A stretch of 64,000 nucleotides of DNA. Origin: Cyanobacteria bacterium FACHB-DQ100. Lineage in GTDB: Bacteria; Cyanobacteriota; Cyanobacteriia; Leptolyngbyales; Leptolyngbyaceae. Under the pieces are notes generated by a model. It did no database searches, was not told the DNA's origin, and was given only the letters and a program-made list of their open reading frames with translations. A program made the position numbers and the translations under genes. Positions 37,095 to 60,486 of the stretch are shown piece after piece (position 1 is the first letter of the stretch; each line of letters begins with the position of its first letter). The DNA is taken from the NCBI GenBank assembly GCA_014695195.1, contig JACJNW010000022.1:186001-250000 (forward strand), written 5' to 3'.

Positions 37095-38468
37095 ATGGTT
37101 TTAGCTTCTAAAGTCAGTATCCGTAAGGAACTCAAAGCGTTTTTACAACTTGCAGTCCCACTCGCCAGCGCTCAAGTTGCCCAACTTGCAACTGGGTTTG
37201 TCGATACCGTGATGATGGGGCATTTGGGGCAAGAGACTCTAGCGGCGGGCGCATTAGCAACGATTACATTTTTTTCGTTTGTAGTCACTGCGAGTGGGAT
37301 TGCAATGGGCGTAAGTCCACTGGTTGCAGAAGCATATGGCGCAGGAGACAAAGCGCGAATTGAGCAAGTCACGCGCCAAGGACTTTGGCTCTGTGCGGGG
37401 TTGACCATTCCGCTGATGATTGCGATCGCCCTATTCGATTCCGTGATGCAATTCTTGGGTCAAGAAGTGGCGATCGTCAAACTAGCAAATGTTTATCTCG
37501 ATATTTTGCTGTGGAGTGTGTTTCCATTTTTGGGGTTTGCCATGCTGCGGGGTGTGGTTGCAGCAATTTCTGAAACCCGCCCGATTATGATCATTGTGAT
37601 TGCTGGAACTTTGTTTAACATTGTTGGCAACTATGTGCTGGGGTTTGGTCAATTTGGGTTTCCGCGTTTAGGGTTAGCAGGACTCGCGATCGCAAGCGTG
37701 CTGAGCTTGTGGGGCATGTTTCTCGCGCTGGTCGGCTATGTCTTGAGCCATCCGAAGTTAAGGCAATATCGATTCTGCGATCGTATCTATCCGCCTCAAC
37801 CGCAAAAGATTTACGAATTGCTCAAGATTGGCATTCCGATCGGTGTGTTCTCCGCGCTTGAGATTAGTGTTTACACCGCTTTGACCTATGCAATGGGACT
37901 TTGGGGTGCAACGGGTTTAGCAGCACATCAGATTGTGATGCAGACGATCAATCTGATCTTTATGGTTCCATTGGGAATGTCCTTTGCGACCACAGCGCGA
38001 ATCGGACAATGGTTGGGACAGCGTAACCCTGTGGGCATTTGGCAGGCAGGAAAAGTAAGCCTCAGCGTCGGAGCGATTTGGACAGGATTGATTGCACTGT
38101 TGCTGGTACTCTTTCCGCGCCCGATCGTCGGACTATATCTTGATGTTCAGTCCCAAGAAAATGCGGAAGTCATTGGATTAGCGGTCTCAATGTTGCGGAT
38201 TGGAGCGATCGCGCACTTCTTTGATGGGGTGCAAAAGATTGCGTATGGTGCGCTGCAAGGTTTGAAAGACACTCGTGTTCCGATGATCGTGAGTTTGCTG
38301 TGCTATTGGTGCGTGGGATTGTTTACGGCTTATGTGCTGGCGTTTCCGTTGCAGCTAGGCGGAGTCGGATTGTGGCTGGGGATTTTGCTTTCGGTTGCGA
38401 TCGCGGCTGTTGCGTTTGTATGGCGATTTCAACGATTGACCTCGAATCGAATTGCGAATGCGAGTTGA
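37095..38468 (+). CDS. MATE family efflux transporter
   Basis: 457 residues with 12 hydrophobic segments in two homologous halves. ASAQVAQLATGFVDTVMMGHLG and, in the second half, GLAAHQIVMQTINLIFMVPLGMSFATTARIGQWLG, match the MATE/NorM family. These proteins export cationic drugs, flavonoids or other solutes with Na+ or H+ as the driver. Substrate unknown. It stands alone, followed by a MITE-like element and a strong hairpin. Confidence 0.92.
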   Translation: MVLASKVSIRKELKAFLQLAVPLASAQVAQLATGFVDTVMMGHLGQETLAAGALATITFFSFVVTASGIAMGVSPLVAEAYGAGDKARIEQVTRQGLWLCAGLTIPLMIAIALFDSVMQFLGQEVAIVKLANVYLDILLWSVFPFLGFAMLRGVVAAISETRPIMIIVIAGTLFNIVGNYVLGFGQFGFPRLGLAGLAIASVLSLWGMFLALVGYVLSHPKLRQYRFCDRIYPPQPQKIYELLKIGIPIGVFSALEISVYTALTYAMGLWGATGLAAHQIVMQTINLIFMVPLGMSFATTARIGQWLGQRNPVGIWQAGKVSLSVGAIWTGLIALLLVLFPRPIVGLYLDVQSQENAEVIGLAVSMLRIGAIAHFFDGVQKIAYGALQGLKDTRVPMIVSLLCYWCVGLFTAYVLAFPLQLGGVGLWLGILLSVAIAAVAFVWRFQRLTSNRIANAS

Positions 38469-38475
38469 TAGGTTA

Positions 38476-38633
38476 ATACCAAATTGATTTTTGAGTGCTA
38501 CAGATCTTGGAAGCCCCCTACATCCCCCACGAGTGGGGGACTTCAAGCCAAATCTGTTTCGGATTCTCAAAGTCCCCCAGTATGGGGGATTTAGGGGGCG
38601 AAGGATCTGTCGCATCACAAATTGATTCGGTAT
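38476..38633. repeat. MITE-like palindromic element
   Basis: About 158 bp with imperfect terminal inverted repeats beginning ATACC and ending GGTAT. Reading each end inward, both give TACC-rAAT-x-ATTT, ACAGATC and GCCCCCTA, then a small palindrome with CCCCCA/TGGGGG. No open frame spans it. The half-element at 29499-29532 shares the core. It looks like a non-autonomous, non-coding repeat. Confidence 0.7.
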
Positions 38634-38648
38634 AAAACGTTAATGGGT

Positions 38649-38696
38649 TAAAACAATGAGACATCCAGAATCTCCTCCAGATGTCTCATTGTTTTA
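38649..38696. terminator. strong bidirectional hairpin
   Basis: A perfect 17-bp stem (38649-38665 with 38680-38696) has four A at one foot and four T at the other. It can end both the plus-strand MATE transcript and the minus-strand argZ/agrE transcript. Confidence 0.85.
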
Positions 38697-38710: not shown

Positions 38711-40819
38711 CTAAACTTTCTCAGCAATCTGATACGGATTGGTTAGTTTCTCAAGCTGTTGAATCAACAAGCTTAGGAACAATCCTACATCTGTCACCAC
38801 GCCGATCGATTCGATCGAACCTCGATCGCTCAGCTTCGTCACAACGGCTGGATTGATATCCACACAGACCATCTTCACACCAGAAGGAGTCATGTTCCCA
38901 ACTCCGATCGAGTGCAGCATCGAAGACAGCATCAAAATCATGTCTGCCCCTTCAATCAAACGAGCATAATCCTGCTGTGCTTCGATCAAATCCATTTTCG
39001 TATCGGGTAACGGGCCATCATCTCGGATTGATCCCGCTAACGAGAACGGGATGTTATTACGAACGCACTCATAGAGAATACCGTTCTTGAGAACACCTGC
39101 TTCAACCGTTTTGGCAATGCTACCGTAACGGCGCACCATGTTAATCACCTTCAAGTGATGGCGATGTCCACCCCGCACTGAAACGCCGCGCTTCATATCC
39201 ACCCCGAGCGATGTTCCTAGCAGCGATTGTTCCATGTCGTGAACCGCGATCGCATTTCCACCCAAAAGCGCCTGAACATAGCCTTCCCGAATCAGTTTTG
39301 CTAGATGTTCACCACCGCCTGTATGAATCACAACAGGCCCTGCTGTCACAACTACACGACCGCCTTGATCTCGAATTTGCCGCAGTTCCCAAGCGATTTG
39401 CTCGACGACTAATTCAACCCGCCGCTCGCTCGATACACCTGCACCCATAAAGCTGAATTCCTGAGTGTTGCGTTGTTCACGCGAGGATGACTTACGGATT
39501 GTGCGAATGCCTTCGACTCCGACCACGACACGATCGCTCGTCGTCAAATCTCGCAGCAATTTACATTGTGCGGATTGACCATCCGGAGAAACCGCGATCG
39601 CGCCGTCCATGCGTTGACGATCGACTTTTACCCATTCGCCGTTGACTCGAACTTCAGTTGGGTAAATCGTGGTCACATAGAAATCATCGGGCGCAACGCC
39701 ATTTTGAATGACAGGTTCAAGCTCGGCATCACAGACTTCTTGAGGACGCGGCAATGCACCCAGATCAATCAACTGCGACATAATCGTTTCCATCACTTCA
39801 TGCGATGGAGCCGTGACTTTCACTTCTGCCGATGAGGTACTTTGACGCTGAGTCCCTAAGTTGAAGTTCAAGACTTGGAAGCTACCGCCTGCTTCGACAA
39901 TGATATCGAGCGTGCGATTGATCACACCCGAATCGAGCAAGTGACCATCAAGTTGCACAACTCGGCTTTCGATCGTCGCACTCGCATGGAGTTCCACACG
40001 GACGGGTTCTGTCACGCGCAACGTTAAGCATTTCGCGGCACCCCCGGCTTTAAGAAATTCGGTTAGCGGGGTTTCTAGTACCTGAAATCCTGCATCTGCC
40101 AAGCGCTGTTTCAGGTCGGCGCTGGCTTTGTTCATAATCACAATGTGATCCACGTTTACCGCATTACAAGCAAAGTTGACGGCATCTGGCTCAGAGATTG
40201 CAATGCGCTTTTCAGCCGGAACCCGCATTTCGATCAACCGATTAGAATACGCATCAAACGCAGGCGGATAGTACAGCAGATAGCCATTGTTCAACGGGCA
40301 GAAGCAAGTATCGAGATGATAAAACCGATCGTCCATTAATCGCAGCGATAGCACCTCGACATCGAGCCATTTTGCTAAATAAGGATGCGAATCGAGTTCT
40401 GACCGAAAGCCATATCCCGCCCAAAGCCAGCGACCTTCGCGATCGAACAGTGCATCGCCCGCGCCTTCAAACGGCAATTCTGGCGGCAGTTCGTGAACCG
40501 TAAAGCCATTCTCCTCAAACCACGCTTTGAAATACGGTTCTTCGCCTTGGCGCTCTTTGTGGTAGAAGCGACTGAGAACAGCAGTTTCACCGAGAACTAA
40601 GCCTGCATTTGCTGTGAACACCATGTCTGGAACGCCTTTCTGAGGCGGCACCAAATCAACGATCGCGTGTTCCTTGATCAAGCGATGCAGTCCTTGCCAT
40701 TGCTCCACCGCGCGATCACGTGAAGACTTGTGAATGTTGCCTTCCATCCACGGATTAATCACATAATCCACATCGTAATGGTCAGGCGCACACATCAGAA
40801 TCCGAATCGAGGAGGTCAT
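38711..40819 (-). CDS. argZ: arginine dihydrolase with C-terminal LOR/SDH (ornithine to proline) domain
   Basis: 702 residues from the ATG at 40819, close to the length of ArgZ/AgrE. The frame is open up to 40852, but MTSSIRILMCAPDHYDVDY is the conserved start. The N-terminal guanidino-group-modifying domain (about 1-270) has PDMVFTANAGLV, GAGDALFD, FYHLDTCFCPL and a final GGAAKCLTL with the active Cys. The C-terminal LOR/SDH (TIGR00300) part has VVVTAGPVVIHTGGGEHLAKL and LLGGNAIAVHDMEQ. In Synechocystis ArgZ hydrolyses arginine to ornithine, CO2 and ammonium, and Anabaena AgrE also makes proline. Confidence 0.92.
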   Translation of the reverse strand: MTSSIRILMCAPDHYDVDYVINPWMEGNIHKSSRDRAVEQWQGLHRLIKEHAIVDLVPPQKGVPDMVFTANAGLVLGETAVLSRFYHKERQGEEPYFKAWFEENGFTVHELPPELPFEGAGDALFDREGRWLWAGYGFRSELDSHPYLAKWLDVEVLSLRLMDDRFYHLDTCFCPLNNGYLLYYPPAFDAYSNRLIEMRVPAEKRIAISEPDAVNFACNAVNVDHIVIMNKASADLKQRLADAGFQVLETPLTEFLKAGGAAKCLTLRVTEPVRVELHASATIESRVVQLDGHLLDSGVINRTLDIIVEAGGSFQVLNFNLGTQRQSTSSAEVKVTAPSHEVMETIMSQLIDLGALPRPQEVCDAELEPVIQNGVAPDDFYVTTIYPTEVRVNGEWVKVDRQRMDGAIAVSPDGQSAQCKLLRDLTTSDRVVVGVEGIRTIRKSSSREQRNTQEFSFMGAGVSSERRVELVVEQIAWELRQIRDQGGRVVVTAGPVVIHTGGGEHLAKLIREGYVQALLGGNAIAVHDMEQSLLGTSLGVDMKRGVSVRGGHRHHLKVINMVRRYGSIAKTVEAGVLKNGILYECVRNNIPFSLAGSIRDDGPLPDTKMDLIEAQQDYARLIEGADMILMLSSMLHSIGVGNMTPSGVKMVCVDINPAVVTKLSDRGSIESIGVVTDVGLFLSLLIQQLEKLTNPYQIAEKV

Positions 40820-41290
40820 AGAAAAATCTGGGTAATGGGATAATCTAGGCAATCTACAAGAGTGAACGTGAGTTTGATCCGCGAAGTTGTATCGGTCAAT
40901 ACGGAAGCTCTAGGACACGGTTCGTGTTAGAAAGCGTGAATCCAATCCATTCTATGAACAAAAGGGAGTGGTTCTCGACAAATTTTAGGGAATAGTTTGA
41001 AAGGCGTTATTCACAAATCAAACCACATCAAATTGGGATACAAAAAATTGGCATACAAAAAACCCAGTGGCGCGACACCACTGGGCTGGTAGCTGTGAAA
41101 GTTGATACTCTCTAATGAAATGACTTATGCGCTAATCATCGCAGCGCCGATGCAATTCCTCATCTGTAGAATCACCGAAATCTGGTCTGCAAAACGCTGG
41201 AAGCTTCGAGAATCATGTCAGAGAATCCGTATTCACACGGTATATTTTTGTGCTGCGTTTGAAGATGATTAGAAATTTTTCGATCGTTCA
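40820..41290. other. intergenic region between argZ/agrE and ftsH
   Basis: 471 bp, both genes on the minus strand. The ftsH terminator lies at 41055-41085, and the rest up to 40820 should hold the argZ/agrE promoter. Two similar phrases (GATACAAAAAATTGG and GCATACAAAAAACCC) stand side by side at about 41036-41065. No RNA gene or reading frame is supported. Confidence 0.45.
41055..41085 (-). terminator. intrinsic terminator of ftsH
   Basis: An 8-bp GC-rich stem (41063-41070 with 41078-41085, loop CGCGACA) is followed on the minus strand by six T. It is placed about 205 bp after the ftsH stop. Confidence 0.82.
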
Positions 41291-43213
41291 TTATGCAACG
41301 GCGTGCAACTCTGTCGCATTTTGAGTAACCTTACCCGTCTTTAACCAAGCTTCTAGTTCAGCAGGCGGTTGTACTCGACTTAACTCAGCCCGCAATGCTT
41401 CACCTTCAAGCACTTCTCGCTCCAGCAAGGATTGAGATAGTTCTTCCAGCAGCGATCGATTGTTCTTCAGAATCGCTAAGGCAATGTGATGCGCGTTATC
41501 GACGATCGCTTTGACTTCGCGATCGATCTCTTCAGTCACTTTCGCGCTGATCTGACGACGCGAGGGAGCGTATCCTTCGATGAACTGCTGCTGCATTTTC
41601 TCAAAGGCAACCGGGCCTAACTCCTCGCTCATACCGTAGATAGTCACAGTGCGTTCTGCAAGATCCGTGGCTTTTTGAATGTCGTCACTGGCTCCGGTTG
41701 AAACCTTACCGAAAATGACTTCTTCTGCCGATCGACCGCCCAGCAAAGTGGCAATCCGTCCCCGAATTTCGTCTTCTGCCATGAGGAAGCGATCTTCTTC
41801 TGGTAATTGCAGCGTGTAGCCTAATGCACCTACACCACGCGGGACGATCGAGATTTTCTCAACCTTACCCGCACCGGGCATCAATACCCCAATCAGCGCG
41901 TGTCCCACTTCATGATGGGCGACAATCTTCTTCTCAGTTTCGTTCAGGATGCGCGATCTCTTCTCAAGTCCTGCGATCACACGCTCGATCGCCTCATTGA
42001 AGTCTGCCATCACCACAGAATCGCGATTGTTTCGAGCCGCAAGCAGCGCTGCTTCATTCACCAAGTTGGCTAAGTCTGCACCTGCAAATCCGGGAGTGCG
42101 AACCGCGATCGTTGAAAGATCAACATCGCTTGCTAATTTGACGTTGCGAGCGTGAACATTGAGAATCGCTTCACGCCCAATCTTGTCAGGACGATCGACG
42201 ACTACTTGACGATCGAACCGTCCAGGACGACGCAGCGCTGGATCTAACACTTCTGGGCGGTTGGTTGCTGCCAGCAGAATCACACCCGTATTCGCATCAA
42301 AGCCATCCATCTCAGTCAGCAACTGGTTTAGCGTTTGTTCGCGTTCATCGTTGCCACCGGCGAAGTTTCCAGAACCGCGAGACTTACCAAGCGCATCTAA
42401 CTCATCGATAAACACGATACAAGGCGCTTGTTGTTTCGCTTGTTCAAACAAGTCACGAACGCGAGAAGCACCAACCCCGACGAATAGTTCAATAAACTCA
42501 GAACCTGAGATCGAGAAGAATGGAACCCCTGCTTCTCCAGCGATCGCTTTGGCTAACATCGTTTTCCCGGTTCCAGGAGGCCCAACCAGCAAGACTCCTT
42601 TCGGGATCTTTGCCCCTAAGCGTGAATATTTCTCCGCATTCTTGAGAAAATCAACAATCTCTTGCAGTTCGGCTTTAGCTTCGTCTACCCCTGCCACATC
42701 AGTAAACTTAACGCCCGTTGTGCCTTCTGAGTAGATGCGGGCTTTACTTTTTCCAACGGTAAGCGCTGCGGCTCCGCCTCCTTGACGGTTAATAAAGAAG
42801 CTGTAGATTCCAAAGAAAATCAGCGGCGGTAACACCCAGCTAAAAATTGTACCAATCCAGCTGTAAGGACTTGGCGTAGGCGCGCTAAATTCAACATTGT
42901 TATCGCGCAGAATCTTCGGCAAATCGAGGTCGATCGCCACCGGAGCTGTGGTATACACCGGAGCACGAGTCCCATCCTGAGCAGGCTGTGTTGACTTCAG
43001 TGTAAATTCAATTTTGTCGTTTCCAATAATTGCCCGATCGACATTGCCCGATCGCACTTGAGAGACGAAATCACTATAAGCAACTTGCTGAGATTGTGAA
43101 CTAAAGCTTGGCACCACAAAATTCAGCAGTAATAGTAACGCAAATACAATCAGCAATCCGCCTCCGAACTGCCGAGGGCGCTGAGTGCGCTTATTGTTTG
43201 TTTCTACTGGCAT
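41291..43213 (-). CDS. ftsH: ATP-dependent zinc metalloprotease FtsH
   Basis: 640 residues from the ATG at 43213 (43243 is another choice; neither has a clear Shine-Dalgarno). Two N-terminal membrane helices (about 15-35 and 115-140) flank a lumenal/periplasmic domain. The AAA domain has [32 protein letters not shown] and [21 protein letters not shown]. The protease zinc site is [10 protein letters not shown]. It degrades damaged membrane proteins; cyanobacteria have four copies, with photosystem II repair and iron control among their roles. Which of the four this is cannot be said. Confidence 0.95.
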
Positions 43214-43392
43214 TGCGGATTTATCCCGAATCGTTTTCTCCATTGTAGAAAATGCACTGCGATCGCTCCCGCCAGGACGCTCTGCCAAAAGGTAAGGATT
43301 TCCGTACTTTATCTGTTGTTATTGTTTCAAAATTCGAGGAAACGGCTGTTTTCTGTATGATTGAAGAATGATGGCTAGAGGAGTTCGGTTTT

Positions 43393-43662
43393 TTGGAGTT
43401 TGAGTTTGACCCCAATAAGAGTGCGGCTAATCAAGTTAAACATGGAATCGACTTCAATCAAGCTCAACAGTTATGGACAGATTCGGAGCGCGTTGAGATC
43501 CCAGCCAGAACAGAAGATGAACAACGATTCCTTGTCATTGGTAAAATCTCTCAGCAATATTGGGCAGCAGTCATAACATATCGAGCCGAAATGGTACGGA
43601 TCATTTCCGTTCGACGTGCAAGAGATAGCGAGGTAGAACTTTATGAAAGCAGAAGAATTTGA
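43393..43662 (+). CDS. brnT: BrnT-family toxin
   Basis: 89 residues from a TTG at 43393, supported by a strong Shine-Dalgarno (AGAGGAG, 43377-43383) nine bases upstream. The family begins E-F-E-F/W-D-x-N-K as here (MEFEFDPNKSAANQVKHGIDF), and ends with VRIISVRRARDSEVELYE. BrnT is a RelE-like ribonuclease fold toxin. The gene overlaps the antitoxin by 20 bp, and the antitoxin start has its own GAGG. The active residues (His in KHG, Arg-Arg) are present. Confidence 0.85.
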   Translation: MEFEFDPNKSAANQVKHGIDFNQAQQLWTDSERVEIPARTEDEQRFLVIGKISQQYWAAVITYRAEMVRIISVRRARDSEVELYESRRI

Positions 43663-44149
43663 TAAACGGTTTGACAACGCCGAAGATATCATCGAGTTTT
43701 TAGACCTGTCAAAAGCATCACGTCCAGGATTAGGACAGAGATCAGTAAGAATTGACTTTCCAGACTGGATGGTTCAAGGAATCGATCAAGAAGCAAAGCG
43801 CTTAGGCTTAGATCCGTCAGACAATCCGCTCAAAGGGTTGGCTGACGCGATTGAGGAACACATGACAAAGCTTGGGGCTGAGGATGTGAAAGAGTACGCG
43901 ATCGCATTCTTTAAGTCTTTCCACTACGCGATCGATCACCCTGACATCCCAATTTTTGAGACGGGCATCGAGATGATTTTGAACGATCGGGTTTTGCCAG
44001 ATATTGACAGCGCTGTTTTTGCAGTGACGATGAGCTATCTGGCACAAAGCCTGAAAGACAAAAAATATAACGGCGATGTCGGTGTTATGCTTGCCGAACT
44101 TTTGACGGGAAAAATTTCGCAAGCTCCGGCAAGAGAACCAGTGGAATGA
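43643..44149 (+). CDS. BrnA-like antitoxin N-terminus fused to an unknown C-terminal domain
   Basis: 168 residues. Residues 1 to about 56 (KAEEFDKRFDNAEDI, DLSKASRPG, VRIDFPDWMVQGIDQEAKRLG) match the antitoxins that pair with BrnT, which normally continue with a VTRQSLIKVW-like helix and stop near residue 75-80. Here the frame goes on after RLG into DPSDNPLKGLADAIEEHM, a mostly helical segment of about 110 residues I do not recognise. The Ribbon-helix-helix part is thus cut before its second helix. Whether it still neutralises BrnT is open. Confidence 0.7.
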   Translation: MKAEEFDKRFDNAEDIIEFLDLSKASRPGLGQRSVRIDFPDWMVQGIDQEAKRLGLDPSDNPLKGLADAIEEHMTKLGAEDVKEYAIAFFKSFHYAIDHPDIPIFETGIEMILNDRVLPDIDSAVFAVTMSYLAQSLKDKKYNGDVGVMLAELLTGKISQAPAREPVE

Positions 44150-44518: not shown

Positions 44519-45159
44519 ATGCTTTTAGAACTAAAGCGAATTGAGGTTCCACCAGGGCAACGAGTGTTGTTACAAGAGGTTTCATGGGAAGAATTTGAGC
44601 AAATTTTAGAAGAATTGGGCGATCGGCGTGCTACCCGAATTGCATATGACGACGGAACGTTAGAGATTATGACCCCACTGCCTGAACACGAAGGCGACAA
44701 AGAGGTTATTGGAGATCTAATCAAGGCGTTATTAGAAGAACTAGACATTGAATTTCTGACATTGGGTTCAATTCCTTTAAGAATCAAGAAATGCTTAAAG
44801 GAATTGAACCCGACCAATGCTTCTACATTCAGAACGAGTCCAAAATACGAGGCAAAAAGCGTCTAGATTTGAGTGTTGATCCTCCTCCAGACCTCGCCCT
44901 TGAAATTGATTTAACTTCTCGGACACATCCAAGTATCTATCAAGCATTAGGAGTCCCGGAGCTATGGCGGTTTGAGAAAGGAAAGCTTCAGATCAATGTG
45001 TTGCGAAACGGTCAATATGAAGTCTCAGAGCGAGGAGATATTTTTGCCAATTTACCGATCGCACAAGTGATTCCACACTACCGAGAGCAAAGCGACATGA
45101 TCGGCAGGAATGCAACTCTGAAAGCATTTCGACAGTGGATCAGGCAACAGATTGGTTGA
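44519..45159 (+). pseudogene. Uma2-family nuclease gene broken by a frameshift at an inverted repeat
   Basis: Two frames together give one Uma2 (PD-(D/E)XK) protein of about 213 residues. The first reads from 44519 to DIEFLTLGS and then goes out of frame, stopping at 44866. The second reads FKNQEMLKGIEPDQCFYIQN and on to 45159, with the family's DPPPDLALEID. Between the two, five bases (44771-44775) stand where the family needs two codons (GSTTFKNQ). The break is inside the left arm of a perfect 18-bp inverted repeat, 44764-44781 with 44794-44811. The active-site part is intact, but it is off frame. Confidence 0.88.
44764..44811. repeat. perfect 18-bp inverted repeat inside the Uma2 pseudogene
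   Basis: Arms 44764-44781 and 44794-44811, loop of 12 bases. The right arm encodes the family sequence LKGIEP in the correct frame. The left arm departs from family sequence exactly where it matches the right arm, so it looks copied from it (quasipalindrome-templated change). Confidence 0.9.
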
Positions 45160-47881: not shown

Positions 47882-47923
47882 GCCCTATCTTCAGCAGCCG
47901 AGTTTAGCTGCTGAAGATAGGGC
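47882..47923 (+). terminator. hairpin after alaS
   Basis: A perfect 17-bp stem (47882-47898 with 47907-47923, loop of 8) starts 8 bp after the alaS stop. There is no T run after it, so it may act as a weak or factor-aided terminator or an mRNA stabiliser. Confidence 0.6.
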
Positions 47924-58476: not shown

Positions 58477-60486
58477 ATGTCTGTTTTTCTAGAAGTTGAC
58501 CACGTTGATAAGGTTTTCCCGCTCAAGGATGGCGGTGAATACATTGCGCTCAAAAACATCGAACTCAAGATCAAACAAGGCGAGTTCATTTCATTCATCG
58601 GACACTCTGGCTGTGGTAAGTCCACGCTGCTGAATATCATTGCGGGACTCGATCAAGCATCCACAGGCGGTGTAATTCTCGAAGGGCGACAAGTCACAGA
58701 GCCAGGACCCGATCGCATGATGGTGTTCCAGAACTATTCGCTCTTACCCTGGAAGACAGTCCGCGAGAACATTGCATTAGCGGTCGATAAGGTGATGAAA
58801 GATGCACCAAAATCAGAGCGGCAAAGTGTAGTTGAACATCACATTAATATGGTAGGACTGCGCCATGCAGCCGACAAAAAGCCGAAAGAACTATCCGGAG
58901 GGATGAAACAGAGAGTTGCGATCGCTCGCGCTCTGGCAATTCGTCCGAAGCTGCTCTTACTCGATGAACCCTTTGGAGCATTAGACGCATTAACGAGAGG
59001 CAATCTACAACAGCAGTTAATGTCGATCGCACAGGAGAACAATGTCACCTGCATTATGGTGACCCATGACGTCGATGAAGCTTTGCTGCTCTCCGATCGC
59101 ATTGTGATGTTAACGAACGGCCCGGAAGCTCACATCGGACAAATTCTATCGGTGCCGATTCCCCGTCCGCGTAATCGTTTAGAAGTAGTGAATCATCCCA
59201 GCTACTATGCGTTACGCAATGAGATGATCTACTTCCTCAATCAGCAGAAACGGGCGAAGAAACGCCAAGTCAAAGAACGAGTGTCGATCGCCCGCAATGG
59301 CTTAGAGAAGGTCAATCTCGAAATCGGTTTTGTTCCCCTCACAGACTGTGCACCGCTCGTGGTTGCACAAGAAAAAGGCTTCTTCAAGAAGCACGGGCTA
59401 GAACAAGTCACACTCAGCCGCGAACCAAGCTGGAAAGCGATTTCGGAAGGCATTCGCACCGGACGACTCGATGCAGCGCAAATGGTAGCAGCGATGCCGT
59501 TAGCCATGACGTTGGGCTATGGAGGTCATGCCCCTCAGCCGGTCGTGACTGCACTGGTGACATCGCGCAATGGAAATTCGATTACGCTGAAAAAATCTTT
59601 CTTGGAGCAAGGAGTCCGATCGCTCTCTGACTTCAAACGCTTCCTCGAAGAGACGCAAGATCGCGCTCATACTTTGGGTGTGGTTTATCCGACTTCAATG
59701 CACAATCTGATGCTGCGCTATTGGTTAGCATCCGGGGGCATTGATCCCGATCGAGATCTAGCCATCACCATTGTTCCACCACCGCAAATGGTTTCTAACT
59801 TAGTGGCAGGCAACATTGATGGTTACTGTGCGGGCGAACCCTGGAACTCTCGCGCTGTCAAAGAAGGATCAGGCTATGTGATTGCAACCGATTTAGATAT
59901 CTGGCAAGGACATCCTGAGAAAGTGCTAGGCGTGCGCGAAGGTTGGACACATCAACACCCAGAGACGCACAATGCTCTAGTCAAAGCTCTGCTCGAAGCG
60001 TGTGAATACTGTGACGATCGTAGAAACCGCGAAGAAATTCTCAGTCTGCTAGCGCGCCCTCAATACGTGGGTGCAGCCGCAGAATACGCCCGCCCTGGAT
60101 TCATTGATGCTTACGACAAAGGCACAGGCGAAACTCCAGCCAATCTCCTCCGCTTTAATCAGTTCCATGTGGACAATGCGAACTGTCCCGGTCGCGTTGA
60201 AGGACTCTGGATTCTAACTCAGCTTGCCAGATGGGGCATTACTCCCTTCCCGCGCAACTGGATCGAAGTCACCGATCGCGTCCGTCGCGTCGATCTCTAT
60301 GGTCGCGCTGCCCGTGAAGTTGGCTTCCCGGACAATGAAGGTGATCGTAGTTCCTTCTCACTTTTCGATGGCAAAGTGTTTAATCCTGATGATCCGATCG
60401 GCTACCTTAACAGCCTAGAAATCCATCGCGAGATTCGCATCGAAGAAGTCAACCTTGATGCAGTCGAATCTCCGATCGCAGCCTAA
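58477..60486 (+). CDS. nrtC: nitrate transporter ATPase with C-terminal NrtA-like domain
   Basis: 669 residues from the ATG at 58477, 22 bp after the nrtB stop. The ATPase domain (about 1-250) has GHSGCGKSTLL (Walker A), LSGGMKQR (signature), LLLLDEPFGALDA (Walker B) and the switch His. After a linker, residues about 285-650 repeat the NrtA solute-binding fold, e.g. IGFVPLTDCAPLVVAQEKGFF and GEPWNSRAV. In known systems this domain mediates inhibition of nitrate uptake by ammonium. It is in the cytoplasm. Confidence 0.96.
   Translation: MSVFLEVDHVDKVFPLKDGGEYIALKNIELKIKQGEFISFIGHSGCGKSTLLNIIAGLDQASTGGVILEGRQVTEPGPDRMMVFQNYSLLPWKTVRENIALAVDKVMKDAPKSERQSVVEHHINMVGLRHAADKKPKELSGGMKQRVAIARALAIRPKLLLLDEPFGALDALTRGNLQQQLMSIAQENNVTCIMVTHDVDEALLLSDRIVMLTNGPEAHIGQILSVPIPRPRNRLEVVNHPSYYALRNEMIYFLNQQKRAKKRQVKERVSIARNGLEKVNLEIGFVPLTDCAPLVVAQEKGFFKKHGLEQVTLSREPSWKAISEGIRTGRLDAAQMVAAMPLAMTLGYGGHAPQPVVTALVTSRNGNSITLKKSFLEQGVRSLSDFKRFLEETQDRAHTLGVVYPTSMHNLMLRYWLASGGIDPDRDLAITIVPPPQMVSNLVAGNIDGYCAGEPWNSRAVKEGSGYVIATDLDIWQGHPEKVLGVREGWTHQHPETHNALVKALLEACEYCDDRRNREEILSLLARPQYVGAAAEYARPGFIDAYDKGTGETPANLLRFNQFHVDNANCPGRVEGLWILTQLARWGITPFPRNWIEVTDRVRRVDLYGRAAREVGFPDNEGDRSSFSLFDGKVFNPDDPIGYLNSLEIHREIRIEEVNLDAVESPIAA

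Follow-up and report, generated by a model that had tools for sequence, protein, structure and literature searches.

Frameshift pseudogenes are commonly ascribed to slippage or random indels. The question raised by the present locus is how a Uma2-family gene in a cyanobacterial genome has come to lose its reading frame within one arm of a perfect inverted repeat whose other arm still encodes normal family sequence. The window, i.e. the whole 64-kb stretch of DNA analysed here, corresponds to G000:C22:186001-250000 in a 5.5-Mb draft genome of 44 contigs. The explanation that accounts best for the locus, and one that we consider highly probable, is that a recent replication template switch corrected a quasipalindrome inside this chromosomal gene.

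In the window, the Uma2 gene is flanked by an ftsH-like gene (41291–43288, minus strand) and by alaS on the plus strand; Pfam supports both names. The same order of ftsH, Uma2 gene and alaS, as consecutive genes, is found in FACHB-63 (G007), the nearest relative compared, in which the orthologue is an intact open frame of 213 amino acids with 88% DNA identity and a Uma2 match (PF05685) of 69.2 bits, above the cut-off of 27. A search of eight genus genomes gave a DNA match to the gene in seven, the window's own genome among these, and none in G002; a plasmid search returned four records, every one of them at 60–80% identity. In the window, ftsH and the Uma2 gene are separated by two overlapping ORFs (43393–44149), the first matching the BrnT toxin (PF04365, 89.4 bits, cut-off 34.5) and the second occupying the expected antitoxin position with no Pfam match; both are missing at the FACHB-63 locus, and G001 aligns over part of this stretch.

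The 5′ part of the broken gene is read in the original frame at 44519–44866 (plus strand) in the list of open reading frames, and matches positions 1–65 of 172 of Pfam Uma2 with 25.5 bits, slightly below the 27-bit cut-off. From 44519, family sequence extends as far as ...FLTLGS and is then lost inside the left arm of the repeat, with a stop at 44866. A shifted frame picks up at TTT AAG (FKNQEMLKGIEP...) and carries the remainder of the gene (44776–45159, plus strand), in which codon-by-codon alignment with FACHB-63 showed no further stop or indel. Within this remainder, an ATG at 44791 starts an ORF of 122 amino acids (44791–45159) that matches positions 69–151 of 172 of the Uma2 domain with 36.9 bits, above the cut-off of 27. 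By sequence, the broken gene is a member of the Uma2 family and is predicted from that membership to be nuclease-like, as Pfam describes PF05685 as a 'putative restriction endonuclease'. Codon differences to FACHB-63 were predominantly synonymous on both sides of the break, with 23 synonymous and eight nonsynonymous among 84 codons on its 5′ side and 32 and seven among 127 codons on its 3′ side; together with the lack of any other stop or indel, these counts suggest that the gene was constrained until recently and that the break is itself recent.

The inverted repeat consists of a left arm (44764–44781; GGGTTCAATTCCTTTAAG) and a right arm (44794–44811; CTTAAAGGAATTGAACCC), here given as on the plus strand, with 18 of 18 pairs complementary across a 12-nt loop (44782–44793; AATCAAGAAATG). 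The right arm, which encodes the family sequence LKGIEP, is made up of CTTAAA, GGAA and TTGAACCC and is the probable template; the left arm, unlike that in all 73 relatives compared, is presumed to be the converted one. In a repeat search the arms could be extended to 21 nt at 95% identity; among perfect inverted repeats with loops of up to 30 nt, no other in the 64 kb of the window is as long. The chance expectation for such a repeat, calculated from base composition, is 2.6e-5 per 64 kb and 2.6e-7 per single gene of 641 nt. Folded as single-stranded DNA, the stretch in the window reached −18.8 kcal/mol (z −7.7), compared with −6.0 and −5.9 kcal/mol for the same stretch in FACHB-63 and G001 respectively.

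The runners-up in the window are two perfect inverted repeats of 17 bp each. The first (38649–38696, 14-nt loop) is intergenic between two convergent genes, encoding a MatE transporter (37095–38468, plus strand) and an ArgZ-like product (38711–40852, minus strand). FACHB-63 and G001 share its inner stem, but the outer right stem (TGTTTTA) pairs in the window alone, and six differences to FACHB-63 fall in the right arm and one in the other. The element could serve as a bidirectional terminator, or it could record a second arm extension. Immediately beside it, approximately 170 nt with C5 and G5 runs (38474–38646) are missing at the FACHB-63 locus and look like a small repeat insertion. The second runner-up (47882–47923, 8-nt loop) lies directly 3′ of alaS and is probably a terminator.

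Alignment with FACHB-63 showed what has changed in the left arm of the Uma2 palindrome. FACHB-63 has A, GGTTCAA, CCACG and TTTAAG in this order, and the window has G, GGTTCAA, TTCC and TTTAAG; the differences are thus confined to one block, in which 5 nt (CCACG) have become 4 nt (TTCC) with a net loss of one base, and to the outermost base (A to G). The block TTCC (44772–44775, plus strand), which was also the one delimited by the cluster scan described below, is the exact complement of the right-arm GGAA, and at the outer end the G has its partner in the final C of the right arm, such that every left-arm difference to FACHB-63 is predicted by the partner arm. In terms of codons, the window has the five bases ATTCC (44771–44775, plus strand) where relatives have six (ACCACG in FACHB-63).

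This site was compared across 73 relatives carrying the motif, comprising 71 of 77 loci (L094–L164; L165–L170 were left out) together with G006 and G004; six of the 73 belong to the same genus. The ORF stretches of four (L146, L156, L158 and L164) were shorter than 195 amino acids, with stops elsewhere in the gene (L146 and L156), a stop near its end (L158) or loss of similarity at the end (L164), and all four were in frame at the site. The six bases form two codons. The first encodes Thr in all 73 relatives; the second does so in 71, with CCG and ATC in the other two. The six other genus genomes encode GSTTFKN here, or GSTIYKH in the case of G004, and the second Thr codon is ACG in all five same-genus relatives with Thr-Thr. 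Neither the left arm or hairpin of the window nor a frame break at the site was present in any of the 73. The edit distance of the window's block was three to 14 of the relatives and four to the other 59, never less, and it was four to each of the six same-genus orthologues. An earlier note on this DNA, made from its letters, had described a perfect 18-bp repeat with the frame break in its left arm, a right arm coding for normal LKGIEP, and a left arm departing from expectation only where the right arm could have templated it, with five bases in place of six. The repeat search and reading frames confirmed the first of these points and the alignments the other two; the comparison with intact orthologues that it had proposed as a check found the same left arm with an intact frame in none of the 73 relatives.

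We also considered a family hotspot, in which the region from GSTTFKN to GIEP would convert repeatedly, and rejected it, as the ORF stretches of the 73 relatives held no perfect repeat with arms of at least 11 nt (arms of 10 nt occurred in one). When the count was repeated on the gene regions of the 77 loci, arms of at least 11 nt were found only in L169, a Hormoscilla copy with 49% identity from outside the 73; this hairpin, with perfect arms of 13 bp and a 3-nt loop, lies at another site, approximately 190 nt ahead of where the match begins and in or near the Uma2 copy.

The alignment of the window with FACHB-63 covers 30,220 nt with 9.8% differences. A stretch at 58597–59177 has a second FACHB-63 alignment at 68% identity, inside a stretch aligning elsewhere at 90%, a pattern suggestive of gene duplication. 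A similar alignment with other gap costs was scanned for clusters of at least three differences that could be explained by a match within 100 nt. With the window as carrier there were 281 clusters, 37 of which were wholly covered by some exact reverse-complement match; only one, the Uma2 site with a match of 18 nt, was covered by a reverse-complement match of at least 12 nt, and with FACHB-63 as carrier there were none among 280. At this same threshold the mirror control yielded a single case of 13 nt (GTTTGGCGGTTTG) when the window was the carrier and none when FACHB-63 was, and the complement control gave none with either carrier. A weaker threshold (clusters of at least 4 nt, matches of at least 10, window as carrier) gave two cases each for the reverse complement and the mirror control, so it is by its length of 18 nt, and not by the number of cases, that the Uma2 site stands out. 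A scan starting from perfect repeats with arms of at least 12 nt found four in the part aligned to FACHB-63. Relative to FACHB-63, the two arms of the Uma2 palindrome show five and four differences, and, aside from the intergenic hairpin at 38649–38696, the remaining two repeats have one and none.

The source of the new block was sought in the whole genome with the 15-nt core TTCAATTCCTTTAAG. Its exact copies in the 5.5-Mb assembly are the two arms and no others, which points to the partner arm, rather than a distant copy, as the template; one further genome site matched with one mismatch, and a control pattern read backwards gave two matches.

Together these observations support the earlier note in its main proposal, that an imperfect palindrome was made perfect by template switching with a frameshift as the consequence, the absence of the hairpin from all 73 relatives and the match to the partner arm both speaking for it. 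We infer that the right arm was probably the template, and that the change probably took place in a single step, during replication and recently. The intact gene would have carried short complementary stretches around unlike middles, its left side reading GGTTCAA...TTTAAG and its right side CTTAAA...TTGAACC. On one strand, the polymerase would have left its template at TTTAAG, and the nascent end would have paired with the wrong arm through the 6-nt match of TTTAAG with CTTAAA. The right-arm GGAA would then have been copied where the left arm had its 5-nt middle, and return to the original template would have been guided by the 7-nt GGTTCAA match, leaving 4 nt in place of five, a perfect palindrome and a shifted frame. 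By our reasoning, the switch would be an intrastrand fold-back if the nascent strand was the complement of the plus strand, and a switch onto the other parental strand if the nascent strand was the plus strand itself. GC skew in 20 stretches of 12 kb along the chromosome of the relative G006 gave no usable replichore pattern, and dnaN positions by themselves do not fix the origin.

With FACHB-63 as a proxy, the progenitor would have been an imperfect inverted repeat, as 11 of its 14 flank positions are complementary around unlike middles; the corresponding counts in the other five genus members are 10, 11, 8, 9 and 7 of 14. The product, with 18 of 18 pairs and the lower folding energy given above, is the more perfect repeat. 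The lowest-energy fold of the single-stranded FACHB-63 and G001 sequences was not the hairpin at the Uma2 site, such that the starting quasipalindrome would have been weak if the ancestor resembled them; the nearest of the eight genus genomes, at 88% identity in the gene, is too distant for intermediates to be seen.

Conversion of the left arm does not account for the whole palindrome. Three flank positions lack pairing in FACHB-63 but pair in the window, with the difference lying in the right arm alone at two of these and in both arms at the outermost. The right-arm codons are CTT, GAA and CCC in the window compared with CTC, GAG and CCG in FACHB-63, and these third-position differences leave part of the palindrome's perfection unexplained by one left-arm event. 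The same codons occur in relatives (CTT and GAA in Prado105; GAA and CCC in LEGE 13415), and by such comparison the differences are ordinary in kind. We do not claim an excess of right-arm changes (4/6 codons compared with 66/205; Fisher one-sided p = 0.095). A reading in which the arms were homogenised in both directions, with the left block taken from the right arm and the right third positions aligned to the left by repeated switching or heteroduplex repair of the hairpin, seems to us unlikely; the hairpin at 38649–38696 would then be a possible second case, which would hint that such events are more frequent than usual in the lineage.

The palindrome could also be an artefact of the library or the assembly, arising from an in vitro polymerase template switch or a consensus miscall at the hairpin, in which case the living gene would be intact. 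The genome is a draft in 44 contigs, the hairpin is stable at −18.8 kcal/mol, and a second isolate of the species was not found among the eight genus genomes. Against this, such an error would, on general grounds, have to dominate the reads at the site; a stem of 18 bp is short; the cluster scan produced no other case of at least 12 nt; and the scan of perfect repeats added just a single repeat that differs much from FACHB-63, the intergenic hairpin. We therefore hold an artefact to be quite improbable, although the phrase 'clear natural record' used in the earlier note exceeds the evidence while an assembly error retains even this small likelihood.

That separate point mutations and a one-base deletion happened to perfect the palindrome is, in our judgement, very improbable. 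In a rough chance model, a 1-nt deletion and random substitutions were applied to the FACHB-63 arm with a 17-nt target (outermost base omitted) in 3,000,000 trials each, and the window arm was obtained 0, 0, 39 and 9 times with one, two, three and four substitutions respectively. An ancestor with ACT ACC at the two codons, the synonymous starting point that favours this route most, would make two ordinary mutations sufficient, as one deletion plus one substitution from this start gave the window arm in 6,471 of 3,000,000 trials. However, ACT ACC is found in none of the 73 relatives, the second Thr of the same-genus relatives being ACG in five of five, and the remaining gene has no other stop or indel.

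It is more doubtful still that the frame break is functional, either as a programmed −1 shift stimulated by the hairpin or through reinitiation at the ATG at 44791. Both halves still seem constrained and the ATG does open a second ORF; yet the frame break is absent from all 73 relatives, no classical X XXY YYZ site was seen when the sequence was read by eye, and a recent break would account for the constraint in both halves. A paralogue acting as donor in ectopic conversion, or a dispersed palindromic element inserting at the site, was rejected as a near-negligible prospect, since, despite Uma2-like matches in the genome that numbered 11 with an N-terminal query and 13 with a C-terminal one, the broken gene included, the core has no exact match there beyond the two arms, and the site has not gained length but lost one base.

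Template-switch correction of a quasipalindrome thus remains the preferred reading, and the process is a known one. Van Noort et al., in Trends Genet in 2003, reportedly inferred the same process, genome-wide quasipalindrome correction, from genome sequence as a statistical excess; here it would be seen as a single event in one gene. In E. coli such correction shows a strand bias and a dependence on replication factors. The process, for which the model is Ripley's, has been documented in phage, E. coli, yeast and apes. Quasipalindromes are reported as mutation hotspots at which template switching brings the palindrome closer to perfection; Ripley (1982) was the first to observe this process, and work at E. 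coli thyA has supported it (PMC7202029). As described there, the thyA case and the lacZ QP5/QP6 reporters resemble the Uma2 site in that an imperfect repeat is perfected, one arm templates the other and frameshifts result, and also in scale, with an 18-bp quasipalindrome in a reporter; they differ in being laboratory-selected, as opposed to a natural event in a cyanobacterial genome (PMC7202029). Homogenisation of inverted-repeat arms has been reported in yeast coding genes, where, as here, a clustered multinucleotide change in a coding arm is explained by the partner arm upon comparison with relatives; the yeast changes in that account are amino acid replacements, whereas the present one breaks the gene (PMC8604942). 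Short-range template switches in great apes, under a four-point model, similarly explain clusters by reverse-complement copying within tens of bases; the method described classes many quasipalindrome conversions as non-significant, and the Uma2 case is such a conversion in a bacterium (PMC7954356).

The Uma2 case is probably a clean natural instance of a mutation type described in 1982 and involves no new mechanism. A literature search, with most subscription papers outside its reach, found no account of a cyanobacterial gene broken by quasipalindrome correction. Roughly a dozen Uma2-like copies exist in the genome, the broken gene among them. If the change is real, it would represent a bacterial gene lost in nature through quasipalindrome correction, with an intact orthologue in place for comparison; and scanning frameshift pseudogenes for templating by a partner arm could give the rate at which genes are lost in this way.
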